A stretch of DNA of 64,000 nucleotides from Paracoccus sp. MBLB3053 (GTDB taxonomy: Bacteria; Pseudomonadota; Alphaproteobacteria; Rhodobacterales; Rhodobacteraceae), in assembly GCF_031822435.1 (NCBI RefSeq), contig NZ_JAVQLW010000001.1:1993501-2057500 (forward strand), in the 5' to 3' direction. The translations under genes and the position numbers were made by a program. Positions 40,028 through 58,946 of the stretch are shown one piece after another; position 1 is the first letter of the stretch, and each line of letters starts with the position of its first letter. Under the pieces are notes generated by a model, which searched no databases, was not told the DNA's origin, and saw nothing but the letters and a program-made list of their open reading frames with translations.

Positions 40028-40041
40028 TGGCGGAGGAGGTG
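40028..40041. repeat. attL (14-bp copy of the tRNA-Ser 3' end)
   Basis: TGGCGGAGGAGGTG is identical to 58933-58946. On the minus strand it is the last 14 nt of tRNA-Ser including CCA. Its place just before the integrase gene marks the left end of the element. Confidence 0.88.
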
Positions 40042-40136
40042 TCCACATATGCACCTTCTCACGCCTTCCCAAGTGGTCCTAAGTATCTTGAACTGAAACA
40101 AAAAATTTCCAAACTTGCGTCTTGAATGTTCCCGCT

Positions 40137-41405
40137 ATGTCCCATACCTTCACAATCACGCTGGGGGAACACTTGGGGGATCGATTGCAGGAAACCACAA
40201 CCCGCAGGACCGGCAATAGGCTCACTGCCGCGCTTGTCCGCAGCCCGCTTGAGCCGGGCAAGTATCACGACAGTGGCGGCATGGGGCTTTACCTCATGGT
40301 CAAGCCGAACGGTTCGCGCTTCTGGGTGCAGCGGATCATGATCCACGGCAAGCGGCGCGAGCTTGGTCTCGGTAGCCCTCCGGTCGTGACATTGGCGAAG
40401 GCTCGAGAGATCGCGCTTGAGAACAAGCGGTCTGTGCGCGACGGGGTGGACCCGCTCAAGGCGCGCATGGAGGCCGAGGCGATCCCGACATTCGCCGAAG
40501 CCGCGCACACGGTCCACAAGCTTCACCTGCCGACATGGCGCAATGAGAAGCATGGCCAGCAGTTCATCTCGACGCTGGAGACCTACGCCTTCCCGCGCAT
40601 CGGCAAGATGAAGGTCGGCGACGTGAGCACGGCTGACGTGCTGGCTGTCCTTGCCCCGATCTGGAACGAGAAGCGCGAGACGGCGCGGCGCACCAAGCAG
40701 CGCATCGGCATGGTGATGAAGTGGGCCGTCGCGAAGGGCTGGCGGCAAGACGACCCGTCGATGGCAATCACGCAGGCGCTGCCGAAGGATAAGCAAGAGA
40801 AGGTGCACCGCAAGGCGCTGCCGTATGGCGAAGTGGCGACCTGCATGAAGGTGGTCGAAAGCAGCGGGGCAGGGGTCTCGACAAAGCTGGCTTTCCGCCT
40901 GCTGGTGCTGACGGCTAGCCGATCGAATGAAGTCAGGCTAGCGCGATGGGGGCAGGTGAACTGGAACGCCGAGGGTGGCCCTGTCTGGACCCGGCCGGCT
41001 GACGTGATGAAGGCCAAGAAGCCGCACAGCATCCCTCTGTCGAAGGCCGGCGCCGAGGTGTTGAAGCTCGCCAAGGAGATCTCGAACAGCGACGATCCCG
41101 ACGCGCTGATCTTCCCTGGAACCGTGAAGGGCAAGCCGCTCTCCGACGCCACGCTGCTCAAGCTGGTGCGCGAGAATGGTTATGACATCGACATTCACGG
41201 CTTCCGCACCTCCTTCCGAACGTGGACGCAGGAGAAGACCACCTTCCCCCGCGAGGTGGCCGAAGCGGCGCTGGCGCACACGATCAAGGACAAGGCCGAG
41301 GCGGCTTATGCCCGCTCGGAACTGATGGATAAGCGCCGCGCCTTGGGCGAGGCATGGGCAATGTATCTGGCGCAGGAGAGCGCCAAAGTCGTGAGGATTG
41401 GGTGA
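40137..41405 (+). CDS. int: Tyrosine-type site-specific integrase
   Basis: The 422-residue integrase has an N-terminal DUF4102 arm-binding domain (D-S-G-G-M-G-L-Y-L-M-V-K), a core-binding domain (W-R-N-E-K-H-G-Q-Q-F) and the catalytic domain. All catalytic residues are visible: Arg in L-T-A-S-R-S-N-E-V-R (about 262), H-G-F-R (about 353), His in L-A-H-T-I (about 380) and Tyr in A-A-Y-A-R (about 391). It lies 96 bp inside attL and should catalyse integration at tRNA-Ser. TTG at 40122 could add five residues. Its N-terminal half is related to the relic at 39505-39912, but the two are distinct genes. Confidence 0.94.
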   Translation: MSHTFTITLGEHLGDRLQETTTRRTGNRLTAALVRSPLEPGKYHDSGGMGLYLMVKPNGSRFWVQRIMIHGKRRELGLGSPPVVTLAKAREIALENKRSVRDGVDPLKARMEAEAIPTFAEAAHTVHKLHLPTWRNEKHGQQFISTLETYAFPRIGKMKVGDVSTADVLAVLAPIWNEKRETARRTKQRIGMVMKWAVAKGWRQDDPSMAITQALPKDKQEKVHRKALPYGEVATCMKVVESSGAGVSTKLAFRLLVLTASRSNEVRLARWGQVNWNAEGGPVWTRPADVMKAKKPHSIPLSKAGAEVLKLAKEISNSDDPDALIFPGTVKGKPLSDATLLKLVRENGYDIDIHGFRTSFRTWTQEKTTFPREVAEAALAHTIKDKAEAAYARSELMDKRRALGEAWAMYLAQESAKVVRIG

Positions 41406-42145
41406 TGTGGTGCCCTGACGGTTTTATTAGCTTGGCTGAAATTTATGAGAAATTTGCCGAAATCTCTAGCCAGTGGCGGTTGGCGACGCCAAATCAATAC
41501 GACGTCCAGCAGGAAGAAAAGAGATCTTGGCTAGATTTTAACGTAGATCTCGGCTGGGATCGAGAATTGGCCTATAAGGTTTGGCTCATGAACTGCTTTC
41601 TAAACGCGGAGGAGGGAAACTTATATGCCGCTCACCCTAACGGGAATTCTGTAAAGCTATCAACCATCGTGGTTCGGCGTGGTAAAGTTTACGATGGAGA
41701 TTTCCAGGATGATCCGCAAGGCTGGAGAAGCATAATTGATCACCTGAAAGATCCGTTCATGTTCGTGGAGGATTTATTTTACACAATCGATTTGCGGGAC
41801 GTCACTGACTCACCTGATATGGATGAATGGGCAGCGGCATACCATATATTGAAGCCGCTGGACCGGTGTCCTGTGTGTTGGAAAATGCCGACCGGCAGCG
41901 AGCCCGACTGGAAGAAAGTGTGCGGAATAGGTGACGGTGAGGAAGGTCGTCGGCCGGGCAGGCCGTCGAAAGTCGGAAAGTTCGCAGCGGCTTATAAGGC
42001 AGAGTTCCCCAATGGTAGCGAAGGTAAAAACCGCAAAGCCGTCCTCGCGCACCTTCAGCGAGTGACTGGAATCAGCGGCTCACTTGACACGCTCGACAGG
42101 GCTATGGCCATGGCGAACGATGCGCAAAAGTCTACCGCAAAATAG
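41405..42145 (+). CDS. Uncharacterised protein coupled to the integrase
   Basis: The 246-residue product begins at the ATG that overlaps the integrase stop (TGATG). Base composition is lower in GC than the integrase. No domain is recognised in the first two thirds, which are acidic and aromatic-rich. The last ~75 residues, from G-R-R-P-G-R-P-S-K-V-G, are basic and then helical and may bind DNA. A role in regulation, or as cargo carried next to the integrase, is possible. Confidence 0.7.
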   Translation: MWCPDGFISLAEIYEKFAEISSQWRLATPNQYDVQQEEKRSWLDFNVDLGWDRELAYKVWLMNCFLNAEEGNLYAAHPNGNSVKLSTIVVRRGKVYDGDFQDDPQGWRSIIDHLKDPFMFVEDLFYTIDLRDVTDSPDMDEWAAAYHILKPLDRCPVCWKMPTGSEPDWKKVCGIGDGEEGRRPGRPSKVGKFAAAYKAEFPNGSEGKNRKAVLAHLQRVTGISGSLDTLDRAMAMANDAQKSTAK

Positions 42146-42210
42146 CCGCAAAAATCGAATGCTGAAATGCGTATTTTGCTAATATTCCCAACCTGAAGGC
42201 TTTCCACAAA

Positions 42211-42246
42211 TCATTCCTGCACTGACCCAAAACAGCGCAGGAATGA
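42211..42246. promoter_or_regulatory. Palindrome covering the ribosome site of the element's alpA
   Basis: TCATTCCTGC (42211-42220) and GCAGGAATGA (42237-42246) form a perfect 10-bp inverted repeat ending 4 bp before the alpA start at 42251. The right arm contains the only Shine-Dalgarno-like bases (CAGGAA). The structure could be an operator or an RNA hairpin that masks the ribosome site. Confidence 0.55.
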
Positions 42247-42250
42247 CCAT

Positions 42251-42433
42251 ATGTCACGTCGCTATATCCGCCGTACCGAAGTCGAGGCCCTGACCGGCCT
42301 TAGCCGCTCGACAATTTATCGAATGATGGATGCGGGCGATTTCCCGAAGCCCGTCAAGCTCACCCGCAAAGCCGTTGGCTGGCCTGAAGATCAGGTTGCC
42401 GAATGGCTGGCCTCGCGCCCTGTCGCAGCGTGA
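42251..42433 (+). CDS. alpA: AlpA-family regulator
   Basis: The 60-residue protein is a standard AlpA: R-Y-I-R-R-T-E-V-E-A-L-T-G-L-S-R-S-T-I-Y, then D-F-P-K-P-V-K-L and V-G-W-P-E-D-Q-V-A-E-W-L. AlpA proteins are the switch proteins of many P4-like and PICI-like satellites, where they turn on excision and replication genes. Here it stands at the head of the replication genes and behind a strong palindrome. Confidence 0.93.
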   Translation: MSRRYIRRTEVEALTGLSRSTIYRMMDAGDFPKPVKLTRKAVGWPEDQVAEWLASRPVAA

Positions 42434-42440
42434 GGTGAAA

Positions 42441-42878
42441 ATGAGGTTCAATCGGGCAGAGCGACGAGCAAATAAATCACGGGCAAAAGAACTGGCCGGC
42501 AAGTTCGCAACAAAATCTTACGATTACGATACGTCCGGCATTCTGATCAGAGTGGAGAACCCCAAGGCAATAGCCGTGCTGCGCCGTGCTTTCACCCATC
42601 TATTGGAGAGAGGCGGCGACCCTTATGCCATGCAGATCACCCGCGCCGAGGCTGCCGCCTTTCCCAGACCTAGCGCCCCAGAAGGGGTGCAGCACTCCTT
42701 AGCAGTTGGCATCGACGTGACCTCGAGGGCGACGTATTCGTTAGCCTGGGCATACACTGACGTAGACGGATCTTCCACCGACGCCACCTTGCTGGCCGAG
42801 GCCAAGGCACTCGACAATCTGGCGGAAAGCATGCGCGTTGCCGGATTCCCCGTCCCCAAGACCACGGGGCGCGCATGA
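42441..42878 (+). CDS. Uncharacterised early-region protein
   Basis: The 145-residue product starts at an ATG preceded by GAGGTGAAA. The N-terminus is strongly basic (R-F-N-R-A-E-R-R-A-N-K-S-R-A-K), which suggests nucleic-acid binding. The rest has no known domain. It overlaps the next gene by ATGA and follows alpA by 7 bp, so it belongs to the same early operon. Confidence 0.75.
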   Translation: MRFNRAERRANKSRAKELAGKFATKSYDYDTSGILIRVENPKAIAVLRRAFTHLLERGGDPYAMQITRAEAAAFPRPSAPEGVQHSLAVGIDVTSRATYSLAWAYTDVDGSSTDATLLAEAKALDNLAESMRVAGFPVPKTTGRA

Positions 42879-43321
42879 ACCGCATCAAGGCTCTCCCGGT
42901 AGGTCAGGACAGTGCCCCACTTCTTGTCGGCTGGGATTCGAAGACAAGCCGAGACCCTGATCAGATCGCCCAAAAGAAAGCGCAGGTCGCGCTAGCTGGC
43001 GCAACCGAGGTCGAAATCGAAAGCTTTTGGGACTGGGCAGAGATCAACGCAGATCGCCAGGCCAAGGCAAGCAAAGTTATCGAATCGGTGATGGATTGCG
43101 AGCCAGAGGACCGCGTGTTGTTCCTCGAAACGATTCTCGACCAGATCCGTCCTGGCTGGCCCAAATCCTTCAACATCGACGTGATGGAAGAGGCGGGCTG
43201 GTGGGCCGACACCGCCACGACGCCCGAGCGCAAGGCTTACATGCTGGCGTGCTATCGCCGCCTATCCCGCGCTGACCGGGCCGCGTTCCTGACCTACATC
43301 ACCGGGGGGGATGCGGCATGA
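42875..43321 (+). CDS. Uncharacterised early-region protein
   Basis: The 148-residue product has no recognised domain. It is mainly helical and acidic, with two tryptophan-rich spots (E-S-F-W-D-W-A-E and E-E-A-G-W-W-A-D). ATGA overlaps at both ends couple it to the preceding gene and to the RepA-type ATPase, suggesting a helper of replication. Confidence 0.75.
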   Translation: MNRIKALPVGQDSAPLLVGWDSKTSRDPDQIAQKKAQVALAGATEVEIESFWDWAEINADRQAKASKVIESVMDCEPEDRVLFLETILDQIRPGWPKSFNIDVMEEAGWWADTATTPERKAYMLACYRRLSRADRAAFLTYITGGDAA

Positions 43322-44595
43322 AGGTGATGCAGCGAAATGACTTTTCGGAGATGGCCGACCTGGACCGCAAGCACATGCAGGCGGCTGGGCCGCGCTCCTA
43401 CGCGAATCTGACCGGTCGGGCGCTCGACCTGTCGGGAGCAATCCGCCCGCTGCACAAGATCAAGCCGGTTCTCAAGTCCCGGTATCTGGTCAAAGGCTGG
43501 CTCGACCGTGGCGCGTCCAGTGTCATTTATGGCGAGAGCAATGTCGGCAAGACATTCTTTGCACTCGATCTGGCTTTGCACGTTGCCGCGGGCGAGGATT
43601 GGCACGGCAACCGCGTCCCGACCGGCGAGAAGTGGGCCGGGCCGGTGATCTATGTCGCGTGCGAAGGTGGCAGCGGCATCAATAACCGCATCGAGGCGAT
43701 GCGCCGCGACAAGCCCAAACTGATGGAGCGAATTGAGGACAACAGCGACTTTGCCTTGCTGCCCGCGCCGCTTGACCTCTGCACATCCGAGGACGCCAGC
43801 TATCTGATTGATGCGATCCGCGAGGTTGTCGACCAGATGCCAAGCCTGATCGTGGTCGACACCTTGGCCCGCACCATGGGCGCAGGCGACGAAAACACCG
43901 CCCAGGACATGGGCATGTTCATCAAGAGCATTGACCTGCTGCGCGAGGCGACCGGGGCGCATGTGATGGTGATCCACCACAGCGGCAAGGACGCCAGCAA
44001 GGGCGCGCGAGGATCTGGGAGTCTTCGGGCCGCAGTCGATACGGAGATCGAGCTGACCCGCACCGACGACGTGGTGACGGCTGAGGCACGCAAGCAACGT
44101 GACATGCCCTGCGACGGCGTGTTCGCCTATCGGCTCAAGGGTGTGTTCCTCGGGCACGACGAGGACGGCGACAAGGTGACTTCTGCCGTGGTGGAGGCGA
44201 CCGAAGCACCGGCCAAGCGCGTCAGGCTCAACGGCTCCGACAAGATCGCCTTGCAGGCGCTTTCCGATGCGATCGCGCAGCATGGCAAGGTGATGCACAG
44301 CGACATGTTCCCTGCCAACCGGCAAGTGGTGTCTGTCGAGAATTGGCGGGAGATGTGCGACCGGCATTCGCTGTCGGCTGGTGACAGTCCTAGCGCAGCA
44401 CGCACAGCCTTTGGGCGCGTAAGAACACGCCTTCAGGATAGAGAGCAGATCCGGATTGTTGACAACTATGTCTGGCGCGTTTTGGCCGAGGATAAGGCGT
44501 CACAACCGTCACAGCGCGTCACAAGTGACCAGTGTGACGCCGGTCAAGCTACCGTCACAACCGTCACACCCCCCTATAAAGGGTGTGACGTGTGA
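43318..44595 (+). CDS. RepA-type AAA ATPase/helicase (AAA_25)
   Basis: The 425-residue protein contains a RecA-fold ATPase with Walker A G-E-S-N-V-G-K-T (72-79), Walker B L-I-V-V-D-T-L-A-R-T (about 178-187) and V-M-V-I-H-H-S-G-K (about 219-227). It resembles RepA/DnaB-like helicases that start replication of phages, satellites and plasmids. The C-terminal ~110 residues could form a winged-helix domain (S-D-K-I-A-L-Q-A-L-S-D-A-I). No primase domain is evident in the gene or its neighbours. Confidence 0.85.
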   Translation: MKVMQRNDFSEMADLDRKHMQAAGPRSYANLTGRALDLSGAIRPLHKIKPVLKSRYLVKGWLDRGASSVIYGESNVGKTFFALDLALHVAAGEDWHGNRVPTGEKWAGPVIYVACEGGSGINNRIEAMRRDKPKLMERIEDNSDFALLPAPLDLCTSEDASYLIDAIREVVDQMPSLIVVDTLARTMGAGDENTAQDMGMFIKSIDLLREATGAHVMVIHHSGKDASKGARGSGSLRAAVDTEIELTRTDDVVTAEARKQRDMPCDGVFAYRLKGVFLGHDEDGDKVTSAVVEATEAPAKRVRLNGSDKIALQALSDAIAQHGKVMHSDMFPANRQVVSVENWREMCDRHSLSAGDSPSAARTAFGRVRTRLQDREQIRIVDNYVWRVLAEDKASQPSQRVTSDQCDAGQATVTTVTPPYKGCDV

Positions 44596-44700: not shown

Positions 44701-44859
44701 ATGGCTGATCCCATTAATTTCACCATCCAAAAGCTGAACGTCATCGACGGCCCGCCTAGCGAGCGGGGCACGCGTCTCTTGGCCACGTTCAATCTCGGCT
44801 TCCCCGGCGTCATCGTCCATGGCTGTGTCCTGGTCGAGCGAACAGGCGGATCGAGATGA
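44701..44859 (+). CDS. Small phage-type protein
   Basis: The 52-residue product starts behind GAGGG and reads M-A-D-P-I-N-F-T-I-Q-K-L-N-V-I-D, then L-A-T-F-N-L-G-F-P-G-V-I-V-H-G-C. It looks like a small beta-rich phage protein. Function is unknown. It overlaps the next frame by 41 bp. Confidence 0.5.
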   Translation: MADPINFTIQKLNVIDGPPSERGTRLLATFNLGFPGVIVHGCVLVERTGGSR

Positions 44860-45040
44860 CCGTGCCCATGTCGATGCCGCGCTCGATGCCATTCACGATC
44901 ATCTGGCCGTCAGCGGTGGCACGATGATGGTGTTGGCCGAACGCATGGGCATCACTGCCGAGGTCGAGGCGACGATAGTGCAACGGCGGCAGCGTCTCGC
45001 GAACCTGCAAGCCAGCGGGGGCCTGCGTGGTCGGGCATGA
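44819..45040 (+). CDS. Small uncharacterised protein
   Basis: The 73-residue frame is helical and charged (H-V-D-A-A-L-D-A-I-H-D-H-L, then V-Q-R-R-Q-R-L-A-N-L-Q). Third-position GC supports coding. The start is uncertain because this ATG lies inside the previous frame. Internal Met codons near 44924 are alternatives. Confidence 0.5.
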   Translation: MAVSWSSEQADRDDRAHVDAALDAIHDHLAVSGGTMMVLAERMGITAEVEATIVQRRQRLANLQASGGLRGRA

Positions 45041-45126
45041 CCGGGGGTGGTCTGGAACTTTGGCCTAATGGCGGGGACCGGCGCGGGGAGCAGCGCGCAA
45101 GATATGACGGAATTGGAGATTTACGG

Positions 45127-45351
45127 ATGACCCAAAAACCCGAGCATCCGCCGCTTGATCGCTGGCGTGCAGACGAGGTTCTGGAGCCGGATCGGCAACT
45201 GTGGGGGCTGCCCGAAATCGCCCGCGTGGCAGGGGTAAGCATTGACACGGTGCGCCGTTGGCATAGAAAGACGGATGCGCCGATCAGCAAGCCTGGCGGT
45301 CGCTATTACTCCACCAAGACCGCGCTCAAGAACTGGCTCTGCGCCAGATAA
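45127..45351 (+). CDS. MerR/excisionase-type HTH protein
   Basis: The 74-residue protein contains a helix-turn-helix of the HTH_17/MerR kind: W-G-L-P-E-I-A-R-V-A-G-V-S-I-D-T-V-R-R-W, then a wing with S-K-P-G-G-R-Y-Y. The start at 45127 follows GGAG, and a frame open to 45037 offers a longer version. Its position just before the portal gene suggests control of the late genes or a packaging-recognition role. Confidence 0.7.
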   Translation: MTQKPEHPPLDRWRADEVLEPDRQLWGLPEIARVAGVSIDTVRRWHRKTDAPISKPGGRYYSTKTALKNWLCAR

Positions 45352-45413: not shown

Positions 45414-46649
45414 ATGAAACTCTGGCCCTTCTCTCGCAAAGCTCAACCGGTTGAACAGAAGTCTCTGGCGTCGCCGGATCAGGCGTTGCTGGCGGCTTTC
45501 GGCCTGACCGAGGCGACCTCCACCGGCATCGTGGTGTCCCAAACGGACGCAATGCAGGTGCCCGTGGTGGCGAATGCGATCCAGCTGATCTCCGAGGCGG
45601 TGGCCTCGCTGGATATCTACGTGAAGCGCATCGAGGGCGAGACCGAGATCGATGTGCCCGACCATCCCCTTCTCAGCCTGCTGCGCAACGAGTCGAACGA
45701 CTGGACATCCGGCTTCGAGATGATCCGGCAGATCGTCAGGGACGCCCTGATGGATGACCGTGGCGGGCTGGCTTGGGTGAACCGCATCGGTGGCGAGCCG
45801 CGCGAGATCATCCGCTACCGCCGCGCGGTGCTGCAATTCGACATCGACCTGGAAACCGGCGAGCGGAAATACAACCTCGGCAATCGGCCCATCGTGGCGC
45901 GCGACGTGATCCACCTGCTGCCGCCTCTGGAACGGTCGCCGCTGACCCTGGCCCGTGAGGCGATCGGGATTGCCTTGGCGCTCGACCGTCACGCGGCCAA
46001 GCTCTTCGGCCGTGGTGCCCGTCCTTCCGGCGCGCTGCTGATCCCGAAGGGCATGGGCGAAGAAGCGATCAAGGCCGCTCGGGCTGCTTGGCGTGTCGCA
46101 CATGAGGGCGAGGATCAGGGCCGAACCGCCTTCCTGTTCGACGGGATGACCTTCGAGCCGTTCACGTTCAACTCGACCGATGCGCAGTTTCTCGAAAACC
46201 GCCGCTTCCAGATCGAGGAGATCGCCCGCTGCTTCAATATCCCTGCCCCGATGGTCGGCGACCTGAGCCGGGCGACCTGGAGCAATAGCGAGCAGAAGGG
46301 CCGCGAGTTCCTGAGCTACACCTTGGAACCTTGGCTTCGTGGCCTCGAAGGGGCGCTGCGCCGCGCCCTGTTCAATGACCAAGAACGTCAGAACCACGTC
46401 ATCCGCTTCGATCGCGACGACCTGACGCGGGCGGATCTCGCCACGCGCGCCACGACCATCAACAGCCTCATCGCCAGCCAGACCATCAACCCCAACGAGG
46501 GCCGGGAATGGCTTGGCCTGCCGCCCCGCGATGGCGGTGACGAGTTCCTGAACCCGAACATCAGCGCGGCGAAACCTGAGCCTGCCACAGGTTCTGCCGA
46601 TCCGCTCAAATCTGAGCGCAACCCCGAGGACGACAATGCAACTGAATGA
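45414..46649 (+). CDS. HK97-family phage portal protein
   Basis: The 411-residue protein matches HK97-type portals. It has an N-terminal M-K-L-W-P-F-S-R-K, the central V-A-N-A-I-Q-L-I-S-E-A-V-A-S-L region (about 46-60), and the C-terminal crown with I-E-E-I-A-R-C-F-N-I-P-A-P-M-V-G (about 269-284). It also has the acid-rich tail typical of the family. The portal forms the dodecameric DNA gate of the capsid. Here it comes first in the structural module, not after terminase as in most HK97-like phages. Confidence 0.94.
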   Translation: MKLWPFSRKAQPVEQKSLASPDQALLAAFGLTEATSTGIVVSQTDAMQVPVVANAIQLISEAVASLDIYVKRIEGETEIDVPDHPLLSLLRNESNDWTSGFEMIRQIVRDALMDDRGGLAWVNRIGGEPREIIRYRRAVLQFDIDLETGERKYNLGNRPIVARDVIHLLPPLERSPLTLAREAIGIALALDRHAAKLFGRGARPSGALLIPKGMGEEAIKAARAAWRVAHEGEDQGRTAFLFDGMTFEPFTFNSTDAQFLENRRFQIEEIARCFNIPAPMVGDLSRATWSNSEQKGREFLSYTLEPWLRGLEGALRRALFNDQERQNHVIRFDRDDLTRADLATRATTINSLIASQTINPNEGREWLGLPPRDGGDEFLNPNISAAKPEPATGSADPLKSERNPEDDNATE

Positions 46650-47022
46650 CATTCTCGCCGATGCGCAGGATCAGGACCGGGGGCGGGATTTCGACCTGCT
46701 CGACCCTGTGACCGGCAAGACGATCGGCATCACGCTTCGCATCGCGGGACCGGACAGCGCCACGCAAGCGCGCGCCCGGCTTCAGATGGTCGATGACCTG
46801 GCCGAAATGGCGGATGACGAAGGCCGGGTGTCCGCGATCAGCCGCGAAAAGGCCCGGCTCAATTCGCTGGCCCGCTGCGTGCTGGGCTGGAATGTCCAAG
46901 AGGACGGCGAGCAGGTTCCCTTCACCCATGCCAATGTCCTGCGCTTCCTCAAGGCGGCGCTCTGGGTGCAGCAGCAGGTCGATGGCTTTGCCTCTGACCG
47001 CGCCGCTTTCAGGGGGCGCTGA
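46636..47022 (+). CDS. Phage structural or assembly protein
   Basis: The 128-residue product is acidic, with F-D-L-L-D-P-V-T-G-K-T-I-G-I-T-L-R-I and A-R-C-V-L-G-W-N-V. The pattern resembles small tail or head assembly proteins, possibly a chaperone, but the family is not certain. It overlaps the portal gene by 14 bp and the capsid gene by one base (TGATG), so production is coupled to the capsid. Confidence 0.6.
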   Translation: MQLNDILADAQDQDRGRDFDLLDPVTGKTIGITLRIAGPDSATQARARLQMVDDLAEMADDEGRVSAISREKARLNSLARCVLGWNVQEDGEQVPFTHANVLRFLKAALWVQQQVDGFASDRAAFRGR

Positions 47023-48545: not shown

Positions 48546-48557
48546 GGAGCATGACCG

Positions 48558-50584: not shown

Positions 50585-51006
50585 TGGCTGATGACGGTGG
50601 CCTTGCCCGGTTCCAGCAGCGCATGGAAGCAATTCCCCGCGCAGCGCGTCAGGCGGTGAAGCCTGCTCTGGTCAAAGCCGCGAACGGTGTGGCCGAGATC
50701 CAGCGCGGACTTGCCCCGGACGATCCCGCAACGAGCGCGCCTGACCTCAAGTCGAGTATTGTCGTGACCGGGCCGGGAGAGGCGACCCCTGCTTATTCGC
50801 AGCCGGGCGGGTCGGTGATCGTGCAGCCGAACCAGGCGCTGATCACCGTGGGCAACACCGATGTGCGCTATCCGCACCTTCAGGAATACGGCACCTCGCA
50901 TCACGCGGCGCAGCCTTTCTTCTGGCCGGGCTTCCGCCTCGGTCGCAAACGCGCCATGAGCAGCATCAAGCGGGCGATCGGCAAGGCAATCAGGGAGGCG
51001 AAATGA
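50584..51006 (+). CDS. HK97 gp10-like tail completion protein
   Basis: The 140-residue product has the gp10 family layout. A helical N-terminus (F-Q-Q-R-M-E-A-I-P-R-A-A-R-Q-A-V-K) is followed by beta strands and the conserved Y-P-H-L-Q-E-Y-G-T and Q-P-F-F-W-P-G-F-R near the end. These proteins help join head and tail. Confidence 0.85.
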   Translation: MADDGGLARFQQRMEAIPRAARQAVKPALVKAANGVAEIQRGLAPDDPATSAPDLKSSIVVTGPGEATPAYSQPGGSVIVQPNQALITVGNTDVRYPHLQEYGTSHHAAQPFFWPGFRLGRKRAMSSIKRAIGKAIREAK

Positions 51007-51410
51007 GCGTCGATCTCGAAGTGCAGAAAGCCATTCGCGCGCGCCTGACGACCTTCGGCGTGGGCGTGACCCCGGCGCAGATCCTCGACAGCAACCAACG
51101 CCCTTCGGTGCTGCCCGCGATCCTTCTGGGTGACAGTCAGGCCGTGGACGAGGAAACCAGCCTGCGCCGCACGCATACCCGCGTCTATCACACGCTGCAT
51201 GTCTGGAAGAAGGAACCCTCGCTGGAAGGCGTGAAGGTGATTGCCGGGAACATCCGGCGCGCGATCCATTCCGCCCGGCTGACGCTTGCCCCGGGGCTGC
51301 ATTGCGCCGATGCCCTGGTGTCCTCGATGCGCTTCCTGCGCGATCCCGATGGCGAGCATTCGCACGGGGTGGTCGTGGTCGAGGTGCTTGTGTCGGAGGC
51401 GGTGGCATGA
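51003..51410 (+). CDS. DUF3168 tail terminator/completion protein
   Basis: The 135-residue product matches DUF3168: V-Q-K-A-I-R-A-R-L-T at the start, then T-H-T-R-V-Y-H-T-L-H-V-W and a central L-P-A-I-L-L-G-D. In siphophages this protein caps the tail tube. It overlaps both neighbours by ATGA. Confidence 0.85.
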   Translation: MSVDLEVQKAIRARLTTFGVGVTPAQILDSNQRPSVLPAILLGDSQAVDEETSLRRTHTRVYHTLHVWKKEPSLEGVKVIAGNIRRAIHSARLTLAPGLHCADALVSSMRFLRDPDGEHSHGVVVVEVLVSEAVA

Positions 51411-51724
51411 GGTCGGGCACGCTTATTGAAACCATCCGCATCGAGCGGGCCACCACGGACATCAACGATGCCGGGACGCCGGTCGAGATCTGGGGCCGGG
51501 TGGCCGAGCTTCGCGCCGAACGGGTGGACCAGAGCACCGAGGAGTTCATTCGCGGCTTTGGCGCCAGCGACGAGGAACTGGTGATCTTCCGCGCCCGCAA
51601 CTTCGACGGCATCACCCCGAAGCACCGGCTCGTCTGGAAAGGCCAGCCCTTCAACATCAAGCAGGTGACGCCGATCGGGCGCCGCAAGGGCGTGGAACTG
51701 CGCTGCGTGAGGTGGCCGGGATGA
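51407..51724 (+). CDS. Head closure / head-tail adaptor protein
   Basis: The 105-residue beta-barrel-like protein has R-I-E-R-A-T-T-D-I-N-D-A-G-T-P-V-E-I-W and the C-terminal G-R-R-K-G-V-E-L-R-C-V-R. These are typical of SPP1 gp16/HK97 head closure proteins. It overlaps the small terminase gene by ATGA, an uncommon neighbour for an adaptor. Confidence 0.83.
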   Translation: MRSGTLIETIRIERATTDINDAGTPVEIWGRVAELRAERVDQSTEEFIRGFGASDEELVIFRARNFDGITPKHRLVWKGQPFNIKQVTPIGRRKGVELRCVRWPG

Positions 51725-52110
51725 AGGGCACCAAGCCTCAGATGCGGCAAGATGACGACGCAATCTTGCGTTCTCTCACCGCGCCCGACTGGCTGGCCGA
51801 GGAAGCCCGCAAGGAATGGGACCGGGTGATGCCGATCCTGACCGAGCGCCGCATCTTGACCGATGCCGATCTCGGGGGCCTGGAGAATTACTGCATCTGC
51901 ATCGGCCGGGTGCGCGATACCGAAGCCAAGATCCAGTCCGAAGAAGATGCCGAGATGATGCTGAAGCTGATCCGGGTGCAGGACAAGGCGATGGCCTCGG
52001 CGCGGCAGCTTGCCGCCGAACTGGGCCTCACGCCCGTGTCACGCTCGCGCCCCGCGATCCGTGAGGACGAGGACCAGGACGACAGCCCGAACCCGCTGGG
52101 GCTTCTCTGA
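51721..52110 (+). CDS. Small terminase subunit (P27 family)
   Basis: The 129-residue product matches P27-type small terminases: A-P-D-W-L-A-E-E-A-R-K-E-W-D-R-V, then L-T-D-A-D-L-G-G-L-E-N-Y-C. It recognises the packaging site and recruits the large subunit, whose gene overlaps as TGATG. A GTG at 51712 is an alternative start. The terminase pair follows the head-tail genes instead of preceding the portal. Confidence 0.88.
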   Translation: MKGTKPQMRQDDDAILRSLTAPDWLAEEARKEWDRVMPILTERRILTDADLGGLENYCICIGRVRDTEAKIQSEEDAEMMLKLIRVQDKAMASARQLAAELGLTPVSRSRPAIREDEDQDDSPNPLGLL

Positions 52111-53762
52111 TGGCCGGCACCTTCCCGGAATGGATCTATGACGGCTCGGAGATCCCGGACCCTTACGGCCATGGCGAACGGGCGGTGCAGTTCCTGCGCG
52201 CCCTGCGGCATCCGAAGTCGATCCTGCCGCACCGTGCTTTCCAGCTGGACCCGTGGCAGGAACGGATCGTGCGCCGGATCTACGGCCCGCGCCACGAGGA
52301 CGGCACGCGCATCGTCAACACGGTGGCCTTGCTCCTGCCGCGCGGCAACAGAAAGACCTCTCTATCGGCGGCTCTGGCGCTCCTGCACACCATCGGCCCT
52401 GAGCGCAGGCCGGGCGGCGAGGCGATCTTTGCCGCAGCCGATCGCAAGCAGGCCGGCATCGGCTTTCGCGAGGCGGCGGGCATCATCCGCGAAGACAAGC
52501 GGCTGGTCTCGGCGGTCAATATCTATGACGCGCATAACGCGCCGAAGAAGCTGCTCTATCGCAAGGAAGCATCCTATCTGGAGGTGATCTCCGGGGATGG
52601 CGGGCCGCAGCATGGCCGGACGCCCGGCTTCGTGCTGGCCGACGAGATCCATATCTGGAAGGGCCGCGATCTCTGGGAAGCCCTGACCACCGGGCTTGAG
52701 AAGATCGATGACAGCTTGCTTGTCGTCGCCTCGACGGCCGGGCGGGGGCAGGACAATCTCGCCTGGGAGTTCTTTGAGGACGCCCGCAATGTCGCGCGGG
52801 GCAAGGTCGATGATCCGTCCATCCTGCCCATTCTGTTCGAGGCCGAGCGCCGCGAGGATTGGGAAGACGAGGAACTTTGGCACCGGGTGAACCCCGGCTT
52901 GCAGCATGGCTATCCGAGCCTTGCGGGCTTCCGGCGCCACGCCAAGCGCTCGCAGCGCAGCGTGGGCGACCGGCAATCCTTCAAGCAGTTGAAGCTGAAC
53001 ATCTGGCTCGACGCTTCGACCGATCCCTTCGTGGACATGGATATCTACGATGCCGGGGCCAAGGACTTCGATCTGGACGCGCTCAGGGATGAACCCTGCT
53101 GGCTGGCGGTGGACCTGTCCTCGACCGTGGACCTCTCGGTGATCGTCGCCTGCTGGCGCCGGGCCGAGGGCTATGTCGTCAAGCCGTGGTTCTTCTGCCC
53201 GCTGGAGGCAATCGACAAGACCGACGACGGCCCTCTGGACGATGACGACGGCATCAGCGCGCGCGAGGATCGTTCCGGGGCGCCGTATCAGGCGTGGCAC
53301 GAGGAAGGGCTGATCACCGCCACCGAAGGCAGCGTCATCGACTATCAGGAGATCGAGACCAAGATCATCGACCTCTGCGCCGAATTGAACGTGCAGGAGA
53401 TCGCCTTCGACCCGCACATGGCGCGGCAGGTGCAGCCGAAGATCCTGGAGGCCGGTTTGCCGGCGGTGGACTTCCGGCAGGTGCCTTCGCTCATGATGCC
53501 TGCGGTCCTCGAACTGGAGCGGGCACTGCTCGGTGGCGAGTTCTTCCACGGCGGGCACCCGGTGCTGCGGCACTGCTTTGCCAATGTCGTGGTGAAGCGC
53601 AACGACCACGGCCATGTCGTGAAGTTCACCAAGCCCAAGCGCTGGCTTTCGATCGATGGCGCGGTGGCCTCGGCCATGGCTGTGGCCCGCGCCTCCACCA
53701 ATGAAAACGCCCTGACGACCAGCGCTAGCTGGTTCACCGAAGACCTTTGGTCGCCCGTATAG
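52110..53762 (+). CDS. Large terminase subunit
   Basis: The 550-residue packaging motor has an ATPase domain with a Walker A-like L-L-P-R-G-N-R-K-T (about 73-81) and Walker B F-V-L-A-D-E-I-H (about 173-180). A C-terminal nuclease follows with acidic clusters (A-V-D-L-S-S-T-V-D, about 332-340; D-P-H-M-A-R, about 434-439). It is of the terminase-1 (lambda-distant, HK97-like) type. The protein appears complete, so the element should be able to package its own DNA. Confidence 0.94.
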   Translation: MAGTFPEWIYDGSEIPDPYGHGERAVQFLRALRHPKSILPHRAFQLDPWQERIVRRIYGPRHEDGTRIVNTVALLLPRGNRKTSLSAALALLHTIGPERRPGGEAIFAAADRKQAGIGFREAAGIIREDKRLVSAVNIYDAHNAPKKLLYRKEASYLEVISGDGGPQHGRTPGFVLADEIHIWKGRDLWEALTTGLEKIDDSLLVVASTAGRGQDNLAWEFFEDARNVARGKVDDPSILPILFEAERREDWEDEELWHRVNPGLQHGYPSLAGFRRHAKRSQRSVGDRQSFKQLKLNIWLDASTDPFVDMDIYDAGAKDFDLDALRDEPCWLAVDLSSTVDLSVIVACWRRAEGYVVKPWFFCPLEAIDKTDDGPLDDDDGISAREDRSGAPYQAWHEEGLITATEGSVIDYQEIETKIIDLCAELNVQEIAFDPHMARQVQPKILEAGLPAVDFRQVPSLMMPAVLELERALLGGEFFHGGHPVLRHCFANVVVKRNDHGHVVKFTKPKRWLSIDGAVASAMAVARASTNENALTTSASWFTEDLWSPV

Positions 53763-53771
53763 GAGGCAAAT

Positions 53772-56210
53772 ATGGCAGATGACGAACGCCTTGTGGTGGC
53801 CCTAGAGGCGCGCATCAACCAGTTCGAGAAGTCGATGCAACGCGCCAACCAGGTGGGCACGCGGACCTATCAGGGGCTGCGCCGTGGCTCGCGCTCGGCA
53901 ACCCGGCAGATGGAACAGGACATGGCCCGCTCTGCCGCGAATATCCGGCAATCGGTCGCCAGCGTGGCGGGCAGCGTGGGCAGCCTCGGCAAGGCTCTGG
54001 CCGGGGGCTTTCTCGGCGGTGTTGCGGTGGGTGGTCTGGCCGAGGTGGTCGGCAGTTCGCGTGAGGTGGTGCGCGGCATGGCCGAGATCGGCAACGAGGC
54101 CAAGCGTGCCGGCATCTCGGCGCAGGCCTTCCAGGAATGGAAATACGTGGCCGATCAGAACCGGATCAGCGTCGATGCGCTGGTGGACGGCTTCAAGGAA
54201 CTCTCGCTGCGTGCCGACGAGTTCATAACGACCGGTGTTGGCCCTGCGGCAGAGGCTTTCGGGCGTCTCGGATTTCGTGCCGAAGACCTGAAGAAGAAGC
54301 TCAAGGACCCCTCGGCCCTGATGCTGGAAATCATGCAGCGGCTCGAAGGGCTGGATAAGGCGGCACAGATCCGCATTGCCGATGAGATCTTCGGCGGCAC
54401 GGGTGGCGAACGCTTCGTGGAACTGCTCGGGCAAGGCGAAGGCGCGCTGCGCGACACCATCGCCCGCGCGCACGAGACCGGCGCCGTCTTCGATGACGAA
54501 TTGATTGCCCGGGCCGAGGATCTCGACCGGCGCTTCCGCGACTTGCAGACCAGCGCGAGCAGCTTCTTCAAGCGGGTGATTGTCGAGGCGGCGGAAGCTG
54601 CGGTGGAAATCACCGACCTGCGCGCGAAGCTCGATGAGATCTTCGACAACGAGAAACAGGGCCGCGCGATCCTTGGCGACGAGGTATTCGACGCGCTGGA
54701 ACGCAACCGGGATGCGGTGGACGGGAACGCCGTCGCGCTCGGCACCCTCGAAGGCCAGTATCAATCCCTGACCGAGGAAGCGACCTCGGCCGGAATGGCG
54801 ATGCGTGACGCGATCGGCAAGCTCGATGCCTGGGGCTATGACGGTGCTGCCGATGCCCTGCGCCAGATCTCGGCCGAGATGGACGAGGTGGTGCGATCCT
54901 TCCGCGAGGGTGAAATCAGCGGCGACGACTTCGCCGTGAAACTCGGCGATCTCCAGTCGAAGGCGCGGGAGGCCTTTGAGGAACTGGAAGCCGGGGAGCG
55001 CGTGAGCTTCGAGGGTGTCATCAGCCAGCTTGGCAGGCTCGGCGGGGTGATCTCGGGCATCATCTCCCTCGCGAACCAGATGAAGAACGCGCTCGCCAGT
55101 GCGGCCGGTGTCTCGGCGGATCAGACGAGCCTCAAGGCCATGCGCGACCGTCACGCGGCCGAGCAGGCATCCATGGACAGCGCCGAAGCGATGACCGAGG
55201 CGAATGACAAGTTCACGGCGTCTGAAGAGGCGCGGAACTCCGCGACCAAGGAACAGGTCGCCCTCGAACGCGAAATGGCCGAGGTGCGCAAGCGGGCCAA
55301 GGAGATGGGCGCGACGCTGACCGACGCCGAGGTGCAGAGCTTTGCCCAATCGGCGCTCGCAGGCGATGCGACCCGATCCGCGTCCGGCAAGAAGGGCGGC
55401 GGATCGAAGGGCAAGAGCAAGGGCAGCGACAGCCTCAAGGGCTTCGACCGTGACGTGCAGCAGATCAAGGAACGCACGGATGCGCTGATCATCGAGGCGC
55501 AGGTGCTCACGGCAGCCGCTGCGAGCGGCGAGACCTATGGCGACGTGATGGCCTATGCCAGCGAGAAGGCCCGGCTCTTGGCAGCAGCGCAGGAAGAGGG
55601 ACGCGCGATCACGCCGGAACTGGTGGCGCAGATTGACCAGTTGGCACAGGCCTATGCCCGCGCGGGGCAAAGCGCCGAGGATGCGGCCGATCGCCTGAAG
55701 CAGGTGCAAGAGCAGGGCAAGGCCGGGGCCGATGCCGTCGCCAGCATATTCAGTTCCGCGCTGGAGGGGGCCGACTCAGCGAAAGAGGCGGTGATCCAAC
55801 TGATCCAGCAGATCATCCAGGTGCAGATCCAGAAGTCGCTGGCAGGCCTCGCGAGCGCGGGCGGCGGCGGTTTCCTCGGCGTGATCGGTTCGCTCCTGTC
55901 GATGGATGGTGGCGGCTACACCGGCAACGGTTCCCGCTCTGGTGGCCTCGATGGTAAGGGCGGCTTCCTCGCCGTCATGCACCCGCGCGAGACCGTGACC
56001 GACCACACGAAAGGCTCGTCGGGCAGTTCCGGCGGCGGCTCGACCGACGTGCATGTGACGGTCGGCGTGGACCCCAACAGCGGCAACCTGACCGCGTTCG
56101 TGGACAAGCGGGCCGGCGCGATCTCCAGCGCGCATCAGCGCCAGACGCTCCAGGTCTCGGAACGCAACGCTGCCGATTGGGTAGCCAATTCAAGGAAAAG
56201 GCGGTTCTGA
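53772..56210 (+). CDS. Tail tape measure protein
   Basis: The 812-residue protein has long coiled-coil and alanine-rich helical stretches and a hydrophobic segment (A-G-G-F-L-G-G-V-A-V-G-G-L). Its glycine-rich C-terminus has S-M-D-G-G-G-Y-T-G-N-G-S-R-S-G-G-L-D and V-M-H-P-R-E-T-V-T-D-H, the classical lambda-like tape measure ending. It would set a tail of moderate length. It follows AGGAGG closely and is the last large structural gene. No distal tail genes come after it. Confidence 0.92.
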   Translation: MADDERLVVALEARINQFEKSMQRANQVGTRTYQGLRRGSRSATRQMEQDMARSAANIRQSVASVAGSVGSLGKALAGGFLGGVAVGGLAEVVGSSREVVRGMAEIGNEAKRAGISAQAFQEWKYVADQNRISVDALVDGFKELSLRADEFITTGVGPAAEAFGRLGFRAEDLKKKLKDPSALMLEIMQRLEGLDKAAQIRIADEIFGGTGGERFVELLGQGEGALRDTIARAHETGAVFDDELIARAEDLDRRFRDLQTSASSFFKRVIVEAAEAAVEITDLRAKLDEIFDNEKQGRAILGDEVFDALERNRDAVDGNAVALGTLEGQYQSLTEEATSAGMAMRDAIGKLDAWGYDGAADALRQISAEMDEVVRSFREGEISGDDFAVKLGDLQSKAREAFEELEAGERVSFEGVISQLGRLGGVISGIISLANQMKNALASAAGVSADQTSLKAMRDRHAAEQASMDSAEAMTEANDKFTASEEARNSATKEQVALEREMAEVRKRAKEMGATLTDAEVQSFAQSALAGDATRSASGKKGGGSKGKSKGSDSLKGFDRDVQQIKERTDALIIEAQVLTAAAASGETYGDVMAYASEKARLLAAAQEEGRAITPELVAQIDQLAQAYARAGQSAEDAADRLKQVQEQGKAGADAVASIFSSALEGADSAKEAVIQLIQQIIQVQIQKSLAGLASAGGGGFLGVIGSLLSMDGGGYTGNGSRSGGLDGKGGFLAVMHPRETVTDHTKGSSGSSGGGSTDVHVTVGVDPNSGNLTAFVDKRAGAISSAHQRQTLQVSERNAADWVANSRKRRF

Positions 56211-56563
56211 TGGACAGGCTCAAGAAGCAACTCTGCGCCGCTGTGAAGGCGTCACTCACCGGCAAGAAGGCATATCCGCCCGAGGCTGGCCGGGACCTGT
56301 GGAACGCCTTTCAGGGCCTCTCTGGCACGCGCACCTATAACCCGGCCGGGCCGAACCCGATCCAGCCCTCGGAGATCGCGGCGTGGTGCCAGTTGATGCG
56401 CCTGCCGCTGGAGCCGCGGCACGTCGAGATCCTGATCGCGATGGATGCCGCCTGGTTGGATCACGCCTATGCCCGGACCAAGGCGCCGGACGGGGTGAAG
56501 GTCCTGCCGCAGATATCTCAGATGCCCATCACAACCGCGCTGCTGGACGCGATGATGGGATGA
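56210..56563 (+). CDS. Phage protein, tail assembly chaperone-like
   Basis: The 117-residue product overlaps the tape measure stop (TGATG). It contains S-E-I-A-A-W-C-Q-L-M-R-L-P-L-E-P-R-H-V and I-A-M-D-A-A-W-L-D-H-A-Y-A, a pattern seen in small phage tail assembly proteins. In standard siphophages the chaperone precedes the tape measure gene; here it follows. Function is inferred. Confidence 0.65.
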   Translation: MDRLKKQLCAAVKASLTGKKAYPPEAGRDLWNAFQGLSGTRTYNPAGPNPIQPSEIAAWCQLMRLPLEPRHVEILIAMDAAWLDHAYARTKAPDGVKVLPQISQMPITTALLDAMMG

Positions 56564-56796: not shown

Positions 56797-57189
56797 TCAT
56801 TTGGGGTCTGAGGGCTCTGGTCGCTCATCACTGGAAAGCTGCCGTTCACCTTGCTCGACGGCATCCAATAAGTTTTCCAAGGAGAGTTTGCCGCTCTTGG
56901 CCCTCAAAATTGCTGAATCTAAAATTCGCCACGCTATCGCATATCGACGGTAAATTTGCATTGGCTGTACAAATGCAAGAATGGCCGCGCAAAGACCCGC
57001 GACAACCCCGAAATACTTGGCGTGTTCCCAATGAAGAGGCGTGAGCGCTCCGCAAACCACACCGACCAGTCCCAAGACGTAATGCACGCGATGCGCGAAC
57101 TTGAAAACGAATCTCCAGTCATTCGCACGCTTCAGAACCTCGGGCGGAATTTCGAACGGCGGATCTTCCGGTGCATCTAGCGTCAACAT
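56797..57189 (-). CDS. Two-helix membrane protein (cargo group)
   Basis: The 130-residue protein has two transmembrane segments (Y-V-L-G-L-V-G-V-V-C-G-A-L, about 37-49; F-G-V-V-A-G-L-C-A-A-I-L-A-F-V, about 60-74) and soluble, charged ends. The layout recalls two-helix effector membrane proteins that respond to phage, but no family is assigned. It is the last of four minus-strand genes, 3 bp after the preceding one, opposite in direction to the structural genes. Confidence 0.75.
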   Translation of the reverse strand: MLTLDAPEDPPFEIPPEVLKRANDWRFVFKFAHRVHYVLGLVGVVCGALTPLHWEHAKYFGVVAGLCAAILAFVQPMQIYRRYAIAWRILDSAILRAKSGKLSLENLLDAVEQGERQLSSDERPEPSDPK

Positions 57190-57192
57190 GAG

Positions 57193-57420
57193 TTACCTCC
57201 GAGGCTGCGGCATTTCACCTGACGCGGTTATTCCAGCTTCGGTGATCATATAGCCTTCCTCATTCGTCACTGGTGATGAGACCCACCTAACCCATCCCTG
57301 CGCGACCATATTTGCCCACGTCACTTTCCCCACTCCCGGAAAGTTTGCCGGGTCTTCTATCGTGTTGATCATGAAGTACCGGAGGGCTTTGGATTCCTTG
57401 GGCGTGGGGCGTCTATCCAT
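57193..57420 (-). CDS. Small uncharacterised protein (cargo group)
   Basis: The 75-residue product starts behind AGAGG on the minus strand. It has K-E-S-K-A-L-R-Y-F-M-I-N-T and V-T-N-E-E-G-Y-M-I-T-E-A-G-I, a winged-helix-like pattern that might bind DNA. A frame open further upstream is less likely. The 3-bp gap to the membrane protein suggests co-expression. Confidence 0.65.
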   Translation of the reverse strand: MDRRPTPKESKALRYFMINTIEDPANFPGVGKVTWANMVAQGWVRWVSSPVTNEEGYMITEAGITASGEMPQPRR

Positions 57421-57500
57421 GACGGTTGCCTCTTGGGTTGCAGGGTGGGGGGTATTTATGGGGCTAGCCCGATAAAGCGTTGCCCTCCGAAGGCCAAGAC

Positions 57501-57869
57501 TCAAGCGGGCGGCTCCCTTTTATCACCGTCAATCACTTTGAGGGCAGGTCTTGGCGCTGCGTTCTCCGCAATAATCTTTTGAATTTCCTGAGAAATGTTT
57601 TCAAGTCTCTCGCGAAAAGCAACTGGCTCGTCAACTTCTTCGTCACGCGAGAAGACGACGCTCTTCCATTGAGAAAGCATATCCTCCAGCATAGCCCTCG
57701 TTGTTCCTTCTCGTGCATCATCAACTTTGATCATCCATGAAAGAACGGTCCGGGCGGCCAACACTTCGGTTTCGGCCTTATCAAGCCGCTCCGACAGTTT
57801 CGATATCTGGTCAGCGAGGTATTGCACTGCCTGATGCAAATTTTCGAAATTAAGCGTTTTCTGAACCAT
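57501..57869 (-). CDS. Coiled-coil protein (cargo group)
   Basis: The 122-residue product is largely helical, with an N-terminal coiled coil (L-H-Q-A-V-Q-Y-L-A-D-Q-I-S-K-L-S-E-R-L-D) and a second helix region near R-E-R-L-E-N-I-S-Q-E-I. No catalytic motif is visible. It is 10 bp downstream of the gene at 57880 on the same strand. Confidence 0.7.
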   Translation of the reverse strand: MVQKTLNFENLHQAVQYLADQISKLSERLDKAETEVLAARTVLSWMIKVDDAREGTTRAMLEDMLSQWKSVVFSRDEEVDEPVAFRERLENISQEIQKIIAENAAPRPALKVIDGDKREPPA

Positions 57870-57879
57870 GCCACACTAC

Positions 57880-58074
57880 CTAATTGCTATTCTTTTTTCT
57901 GGAAGGCTCTCTTCGCCAATCAACTAAATCAAAGGGATCTACCTCTCGTTCGTCGCCGTCGCGCAGAGTTACCTTGATCTCGCCGTCTTTGATTGTCACG
58001 CTCGCTACCTTGACGCCGGAATTTTCCAGCGCCGCGACCAGACGGGCCGCTCGCGTCTCGACTGTCATCGCCAA
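57880..58074 (-). CDS. Small uncharacterised protein (first gene of the cargo group)
   Basis: The 64-residue product may start at Met1 (58074) or Met3 (58068). It has V-K-V-A-S-V-T-I-K-D-G-E-I-K-V-T-L-R-D-G, a small beta-strand motif, and a basic end (R-R-E-P-S-R-K-K). A TTGACA-like -35 box lies about 60 bp upstream on the minus strand (58134-58139). The group therefore probably has its own promoter. Confidence 0.65.
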   Translation of the reverse strand: MAMTVETRAARLVAALENSGVKVASVTIKDGEIKVTLRDGDEREVDPFDLVDWRREPSRKKNSN

Positions 58075-58331
58075 AGGCGCACCTCAAACTCTGGATAGGT
58101 CAAAGATTGAATGCTTCGGCAGGCGCAGAGCAATGTCAAGCGGCCGCCCCGAGGGGCAGACTTGACCATGTCGTCATGTTGGATGTCGCCTAATCGCGGA
58201 GCCTGAGAACTCCCGAAGCGGTCCCTTGCCGGGGATGGCGCTTCAACCGCGATAAGAGTGACCAGCCTTGCCGGGCATCGGCCCCTCTGAATATAGCGCG
58301 CCCATTTGCCGTGGGCGTGACCGGCACCACT

Positions 58332-58478
58332 ATGCCGGGAGTGCCACGGTTATGCAAGACCCGAAAGGGGAAGGCCGTGGCGCATGTTCTCGCGGACATG
58401 TTCTCAGACTCCCGGCGCCAGTGCCGATCGCTGGCATTGGAACTTGTGCAAGAAATTGCCGAAGTTCCCCGGCCCTGA
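58332..58478 (+). CDS. Possible small basic protein
   Basis: A 48-codon frame encodes P-G-V-P-R-L-C-K-T-R-K-G-K-A-V-A-H-V-L and a helical acidic end. The frame stays open upstream without a start codon, and there is no clear ribosome site. Support is weak. Otherwise the 58075-58508 interval holds no gene I can defend. Confidence 0.25.
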   Translation: MPGVPRLCKTRKGKAVAHVLADMFSDSRRQCRSLALELVQEIAEVPRP

Positions 58479-58508
58479 GAAGCCGGTTCAGACCGCGAGT
58501 AGAAACCT

Positions 58509-58799
58509 ATGACCCATATGAATCCACCCGACCTGATAGCGCCGACAGAGCGGCTTGATGGTGCTCCCATGCCATGTGAGTTGGAGCAGCACCTTGGCAA
58601 CATTCAGCACAAAGCGGTGCAACTTGAGGCGATCACCGTGGCAATCGAGGCGATGCTGATCGGAGGAAAGGTCGGACGAAAGATCATCGCCGAACTTAAC
58701 TCGGTGGCGATCAGCTTCTCCATCGATATCCAGCGCGACCTAGATTCCCTGAGCTCGGTCGTGAAAAACTGTGAGACGGGCAGGTCAGCCTCGAGGTAA
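58509..58799 (+). CDS. Small helical protein at the right end of the element
   Basis: The 96-residue product is helical (L-E-Q-H-L-G-N-I-Q-H-K-A-V-Q-L-E-A-I-T-V, then V-A-I-S-F-S-I-D-I-Q-R-D-L). It is transcribed toward attR, opposite to the cargo genes. No domain is recognised. It is the last gene before the attachment repeat. Confidence 0.55.
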   Translation: MTHMNPPDLIAPTERLDGAPMPCELEQHLGNIQHKAVQLEAITVAIEAMLIGGKVGRKIIAELNSVAISFSIDIQRDLDSLSSVVKNCETGRSASR

Positions 58800-58932
58800 T
58801 GCCCCGTCAAAGGAGGGAACATCCTTCCCGAGCCGTCTCGCATATTCTCAAATCAGGTGGGGGAACAACTGTGGGGACCGGCTGATGATCTGGGTAATTT
58901 TTTAAGTAAAATCAACGCATTGCCGGATATGA

Positions 58933-58946
58933 TGGCGGAGGAGGTG
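58933..58946. repeat. attR (14 bp inside the tRNA-Ser gene)
   Basis: TGGCGGAGGAGGTG repeats attL exactly. It comprises the encoded CCA, the discriminator base and the 3' acceptor strand of the tRNA, so integration restores a complete tRNA. Confidence 0.88.

Follow-up and report, generated by a model that had tools for sequence, protein, structure and literature searches.

Phage satellites usually fall into two groups, those that steal heads and tails from a helper phage and those that steal tails only. Capsid-forming phage-inducible chromosomal islands (cf-PICIs) are described as encoding head, packaging and HNH proteins and relying on helpers for tails only (PMC10690885). In Vibrio cholerae, phage-inducible chromosomal island-like elements (PLEs) insert their own tape measure protein (TMP) into otherwise helper-made tails, and PLE11 adds its own baseplate hub as well (PMC12987554, 2026); the legend to Extended Data Fig. 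10b of that article mentions putative tmp genes in sampled cf-PICIs. Here we describe an 18.9-kb element (positions 40028-58946) in a 64-kb stretch of the Paracoccus sp. MBLB3053 genome, hereafter the window, that by its gene content is a cf-PICI extended into the tail.

The element resembles cf-PICIs in having its own capsid, protease, portal and connectors, its own small and large terminase subunits (TerS and TerL) and HNH protein, and an integrase, an AlpA-type regulator and site-specific integration; AlpA is a marker of PICIs. It differs in that it encodes a tail tube, a gp17-like terminator, chaperones and a TMP, where cf-PICIs leave the tail to the helper. Pfam profiles were run on the 28 open reading frames (ORFs) of the element, PHROGs on 15 of them and PADLOC on 8. 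An earlier note on this DNA had named an integrase, AlpA and a RepA-type ATPase as early genes, and Pfam recovers all three on the plus strand, as it does the other genes given here unless stated otherwise: the tyrosine integrase (40122-41405; Phage_int_M, Arm-DNA-bind_3 and Phage_integrase; the start may be internal), the AlpA-type regulator (42251-42433; Phage_AlpA, 1.1e-19) and a RepA-like ATPase, probably a replication protein (43318-44595; AAA_25, 6.7e-40, and PHROG primase/helicase families). The head and packaging set is complete, as had been proposed. It comprises the portal (45414-46649; Phage_portal, 1.7e-81 for the ORF from 45393), a fused S78-type prohead protease and HK97-type major capsid protein (47022-48545; Peptidase_S78, 4.9e-22; Phage_capsid, 1.1e-80), the HNH endonuclease (48938-49318; HNH, 2.1e-5), a gp6-like head-tail connector (50255-50584; Phage_connect_1, 2.8e-17), a head completion protein (51407-51724; Phage_HCP, 1.4e-16), TerS (51712-52110; Terminase_4, 3.4e-19) and TerL (52110-53762; TerL_nuclease, TerL_ATPase and the family tree). 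A conserved head-module protein without assigned role (48558-48938; phrog_5707, 9e-33) is, as alignment indicates, present in head-only relatives too.

The partial tail proposed earlier, with two tube-like proteins, a terminator and a tape measure, is likewise found. Tail tube protein 1 (49315-49794), a major tail protein by PHROG, is predicted to adopt the lambda gpV tube fold; tail tube protein 2 (49798-50253; phrog_158, only 8.4e-5) is its paralogue with 36% identity. There follow an HK97 gp10-like protein (50581-51006; HK97-gp10_like, 4.8e-4, just at the cut-off), the gp17-like tail completion protein or terminator (51003-51410; Tail_completion_gp17, 9.6e-18) and, beyond terL, the TMP (53772-56210; phrog_10574, 3.2e-126). 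Two tail assembly chaperones go beyond the earlier list, one at 46636-47022 (phrog_313, 3.6e-16) and one at 56210-56563 (Phage_TAC_18, 1.4e-11 for the ORF from 56177). They flank the structural operon, an unusual order, as tail chaperone genes are usually placed between tube and TMP genes.

The borders of the element are sharply defined. It is bounded by an exact 14-bp direct repeat of the 3' end of a tRNA-Ser(TGA) gene (58933-59022, minus strand; ARAGORN), the integration target. The repeat, TGGCGGAGGAGGTG, has exactly two copies in the window, one distal to the tRNA (40028-40041) and one within its 3' end (58933-58946); with one mismatch permitted, shuffled sequences gave a mean of 0.03 matches, and two were reached in none of 100 shuffles, in agreement with the 18.9-kb unit proposed before. 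The G+C content is 0.624 for the element, 0.61 for the remaining window and 0.557 for the cargo end.

The same organisation recurs elsewhere. A TerL match at E≤1e-80 was present in 26 of 390 sampled genomes of the order, the window genome included. Relatives were collected from IMG/VR (38 loci; best-segment identity 45-94%; contigs of 4,231-20,139 bp) and from GTDB genome contigs, of which the best 80 of 172 stretches encoding a relative were used. A search for full-length borders covered 22 loci, namely 21 relatives and the window, and found tRNA-derived direct repeats in 16, spaced 15,517-18,920 bp apart (median 17,717), at tRNA genes for Ser, His, Glu, Val, Leu, Cys, Gln, Pro and Trp. The remaining six comprised three in which no tRNA was found, two with a tRNA but without a repeat (one of them on a short contig) and one that gave nothing beyond 11-bp chance matches. 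All 16 bordered loci have portal, capsid, gp6, gp10, head completion protein, TerL and TMP, and gp17 and TerS were called in 15. Since repeats of this spacing recur with the same head-to-TMP set, the element is apparently intact and no remnant, and its sequence places it in a widespread alphaproteobacterial satellite family.

The state of the genes themselves is consistent with this. As the 28 genes are open frames by way of selection, wholeness was judged from length relative to family members: the structural genes fall into the same length class as those of relatives, TerL is alignable across residues 1-550 in two of them (L033 and L035), and the TMP has 812 aa, compared with 809-861 aa in relatives whose front part is 66-85% identical. 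The internal frameshifts that the earlier note had considered are thus not seen. Nor did a full-length relative of 35-45 kb turn up in the phages collection, among TerL matches or among the 38 IMG/VR loci. The phages collection held no near DNA match to the element, and 1258 phage records had a TerL match, with identities of 30-33% among the 20 matches listed. The proposal of a maintained element between satellite and phage, lacking only distal tail and lysis functions, therefore gains support from its recurrence, and a particle-producing remnant is unlikely given the similar sizes and tRNA borders. To speak of a new kind of satellite would be too strong, since cf-PICIs have the same head, packaging and HNH genes, and both putative tmp genes in cf-PICIs and chimeric tails in PLEs are published (PMC12987554).

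In a complete temperate siphophage one would expect a tip hub, fibres and lysis genes. The 28 ORFs yielded no recognisable endolysin, holin, fibre, hub or CI-type repressor (Pfam; PHROGs for 15), so that an element without lysis or tail-tip genes, as described before, holds at the level of recognised families. As several early ORFs have no assigned role, the lack of a repressor likewise holds for recognised families. Lysis genes were checked by profile in the window and judged from gene lists alone in relatives. The tip-hub domain PF13550 gave 41 matches across all 21 satellite-bearing host genomes and DUF2460 gave 34 across the same 21, none of them inside an element; by eye, the matches were placed outside the elements or outside the stretches fetched around them. 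Because no tip or lysis gene is recognisable, the element probably borrows these functions from helpers.

The TMP offers a hint as to where such a tip could come from. The host genome contains three siphovirus-like prophages (contig C1, 1.398-1.437, 2.304-2.336 and 2.705-2.750 Mb), each with head-size genes and a TMP, which is followed by genes of about 210, 206-207, 108-147 and 1130-1139 aa, the largest carrying PF13550; each also has fibre-size genes and, in our reading, possibly lysis genes. Pfam on ten proteins of the first prophage identified a GpA terminase, a lambda-type portal, a ClpP protease with capsid, a lambda-like tube, TMP_2, DUF6950 and Phage-tail_3, and left three of the ten without a match. 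When 29 proteins were searched, 28 of them from the element, only the tail end of the TMP was common to the element and each prophage at E≤1e-3, with identities of 41% over residues 526-786, 31% over 537-794 and 39% over 526-753. Aligned globally, the element TMP and that of the first prophage share 27% identity over residues 1-300 and 58% over the last 122 (691-812), whereas satellites with a 93% identical TerL reach 82-84% over 1-300 and 46-57% over 691-812. Two further satellites, L037 and L103 (TerL 87% and 83% identical), show 41-50% at the tail end and only 35% over 1-300. As front and tail-end identities diverge in this way between satellites and prophage, the alignments indicate that the element TMP is a mosaic. 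Parts of it are also shared by six phage regions of other genomes (L076, L081, L082, L087, L088 and L086, the last on a short contig); all but L086 have tip-size genes after the TMP, as judged by size only and not by profile. By analogy with solved siphophage tails, this tail end of the TMP would be the one that meets the tip.

Taken together, we consider it probable that the element is an intact integrated cf-PICI-like satellite with an added tail module, which makes its own head, neck, tube and TMP and relies on a helper siphophage for tip, fibres and lysis. On induction it would be excised from the tRNA-Ser gene and replicated by its own RepA-like ATPase, and its DNA would be packaged by its own TerS, TerL and HNH proteins into its own HK97-type capsid. 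Neck and tail tube would be made from element genes, with the TMP setting the length of the tube; the tail end of the TMP would then dock onto the tip complex of the helper, which would supply lysis as well as the tip and the fibres that set the host range. What is read from sequence are the borders, the recurrence, the genes present and their open frames, the absence of two tip families from the elements, the predicted tube fold and the TMP mosaicism; induction, helper dependence, the chimeric tail and the end of the TMP that meets the tip are inferred.

Several points weigh against this explanation. The absence of a tip rests on two Pfam models, which more diverged tip genes would escape. 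A resident helper is often not visible, because 13 of the 21 host genomes have a single PF13550 locus, 4-5 kb from a single DUF2460, and all 11 regions read among these 13 are gene transfer agent (GTA) clusters; a superinfecting helper must then be assumed. In the window genome one of the four PF13550 loci is the GTA cluster, and the three prophages count as one observation because they are mutually related. Moreover, the satellite L035, 85% identical to the element TMP over residues 1-300, matches its end (59% over 691-812) as well as the prophage does. Finally, where the similarity of a satellite's TMP end to that of the window extends at least to residue 260 of a 292-residue query, about 3 of 11 genomes hold a matching co-resident phage, and for the other satellites 1 of 29 does; this is a post hoc grouping too small to claim, in which three of the 29 are genomes seen twice.

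The helper-tip reading has a precedent in the PLEs, which likewise carry a TMP and a tail chaperone and for which joining with helper tip and fibres has been shown (PMC12987554), whereas for the element it is predicted; the likeness is one of gene content. According to the same article, PLEs depend on phage ICP1 for capsid proteins, tube and sheath and have contractile tails, whereas capsid and tube of the element are its own and no sheath was recognised. The tmp-bearing cf-PICIs of that article, set beside the element by description only, share with it the combination of cf-PICI and TMP; the available description gives a TMP and an integrase without mention of tube, terminator or helper matching, and possibly these cf-PICIs and some loci studied here are the same family. 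The Streptomyces satellites MulchRoom and MiniFlayer also have capsid and packaging genes of their own, but their helpers are virulent phages and they show no significant homology to cf-PICIs; the term "tape measure" is absent from the main text on them (PMC10690885). We found no published satellite with its own tail tube in a literature search that is incomplete for subscription journals. New here are thus the own tube, a graded ownership of the tail and TMP ends resembling those of co-resident phages.

This gradation was read from 83 of the 118 IMG/VR and GTDB loci, namely those with at least 7.5 kb before and at least 5 kb after terL. Because genomes partly overlap and the 83 loci hold 79 distinct terL DNA sequences (63 of those with TMP), the counts are loci and not independent events. 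HNH is present in 82, capsid in 82, TerS in 81, portal in 81 and a TMP homologue in 66, mostly about 1.6 kb after the terL start. The full tail set (tube, gp10, gp17, TMP and both chaperones) occurs in 34 loci; 27 combine TMP, gp10 and gp17 with two different chaperone-like proteins (c11 and c12) but have no recognised tube, 16 lack every tail gene tested and six are mixed. Of the 17 loci lacking a TMP homologue, five, four of which belong to the tail-less 16, encode a TMP-like protein of unrelated sequence, which in one case is split and partly on the opposite strand. After these five are moved, no TMP was detected in 12 of the 83 loci, and for this reason these relatives of the same TerL family look like head-only cf-PICIs. 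In L104, L106 (Xanthobacteraceae bacterium 501b), L058 and L125, all of this TerL family, the TMP-like protein after terL is largely unrelated, which suggests independent acquisitions.

The second subfamily seems to have a TMP and chaperones without a recognised tube. The conserved 200-aa protein c12 was considered as its hidden tube and rejected on account of weak matches to the tail chaperone family PF09550/Phage_TAC_6 (best 7.9e-6) in 19 of 24 scanned of 29 listed. For c11, we take GTA gp10, namesake of the related Pfam family, to act as a chaperone and therefore read c11 as one too; it matches phrog_8985, labelled "tail tube protein", and given this label the subfamily may still have a tube. 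On the TerL tree (95 rows; a quick tree with support by SH-aLRT only) the tail state requires at least 8 changes, 7 of them forced by well supported branches, compared with 11.6 on average for shuffled labels, and is therefore clustered. Nevertheless close kin differ: the Martelella loci L141 and L143 are head-only, whereas L112 and L116 are tailed. Four elements (G250, G452, G604 and G475) have one extra protein after the TMP with a match to a distal tail, minor tail or virion family; of the pair G452 and G604 only G452 was scanned. We consider it almost as likely as not that a cf-PICI lineage moved stepwise into tail assembly, from head only through TMP without recognised tube and TMP with tube to TMP with a distal ring protein, the TMP end serving as an exchangeable plug matching available helper tips.

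Two further loci are worth recording. L228 (G612:C23, about 7541-16149 after reversal) is short and combines protease, capsid, a gp10-like gene and a TMP with 46-48% identity in parts with an integrase-size gene, without a portal or terminase match; it is either a smaller satellite or a degraded copy. L227 (G646:C35), in a Gemmobacter genome, is a second element fragment with part of terL, TMP and chaperone at a contig end.

Other explanations of the tail genes have to be weighed. They could serve interference, with TMP and chaperones sequestering tip or tube of the helper and crippling its tails while the satellite heads take whole helper tails like canonical cf-PICIs. The 12 relatives that persist without a detected TMP would fit, as would the known PLE-encoded protein that restricts helper tail assembly (PMC12987554). 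However, tube, terminator and chaperones are needless for such a device and the whole set is kept in 34 of the 83 loci, which makes interference improbable. We regard it as very unlikely that the element is autonomous, with an unrecognised small protein closing the tail so that infection or DNA delivery by the particle needs no helper: unassigned ORFs are at hand and four elements carry one distal-tail or virion protein after the TMP, yet the post-TMP genes vary between elements and the window showed no recognisable tip or lysis gene.

The host's own GTA, rather than a phage, could donate the tip, and PF13550 and DUF2460 do occur in all 21 hosts, as a single pair in 13, with each of the 11 regions read among those being a GTA. 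In addition, the RcGTA capsid is the nearest to the element capsid among solved sequences (5e-43), and the window TMP end gives a non-significant match (E 0.53) in its own GTA tail region. Against this, a comparison of 16 satellite TMPs with 12 GTA regions gave no match at E≤0.01, whereas TMPs of co-resident prophages did give matches to the window TMP. A GTA donor, the extreme form of the borrowing idea, thus has no significant support and was rejected as highly improbable. A deletion remnant of an ordinary siphoprophage can practically be discarded: tip and lysis genes are missing, and the TMP is related over much of its length to those of L076 and L081 and in part to that of L082, but the size class and tRNA borders recurring in 16 of 22 loci, the conserved gene order that places terS-terL after the neck genes and before the TMP, the open frames of family length and the lack of a related full-length phage in the collections searched all speak against it.

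The other ORFs of the element lie mostly in its early region and at its right end. On the plus strand, a 263-aa ORF (41354-42145) has no match in Pfam, PADLOC or PHROG; the longest ORF at 42330-42878, without a Pfam family, probably starts downstream of alpA; a 148-aa ORF (42875-43321) has similar ORFs in several relatives; and a 73-aa ORF (44819-45040) has no Pfam family above the cut-off. Directly before the portal lies a helix-turn-helix protein resembling excisionases or regulators (45037-45351; HTH_17/MerR_1; phrog_66, 3.6e-7). Its weak mads_1 match was the only one that PADLOC returned for defence cargo in the 8 ORFs scanned. Four small ORFs on the minus strand (56797-58074) form the variable cargo end, one of which (56797-57189) weakly resembles SLATT_1 (0.0028, below the cut-off), and 58509-58799 is a plus-strand ORF without assignment. 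Outside the element, an N-terminal fragment of a second tyrosine integrase (39436-39912, minus strand) starts about 116 bp from the left att copy and was probably left behind by another element that used the same tRNA-Ser site. The adjoining 993-aa AAA/SMC-like ATPase (35995-38976, plus strand; PADLOC Ppl, 1.2e-31) is a candidate defence gene.

Several degrees of tail ownership within one terminase family mean that how much of a virion a helper-dependent satellite can keep becomes testable, as does a possible role of the TMP end in selecting the helper tip. If the stepwise reading is true, such a satellite would own the entire particle except the receptor-binding tip. The findings also suggest that, in alphaproteobacteria, many elements of 16-19 kb that bear a prophage label are satellites.

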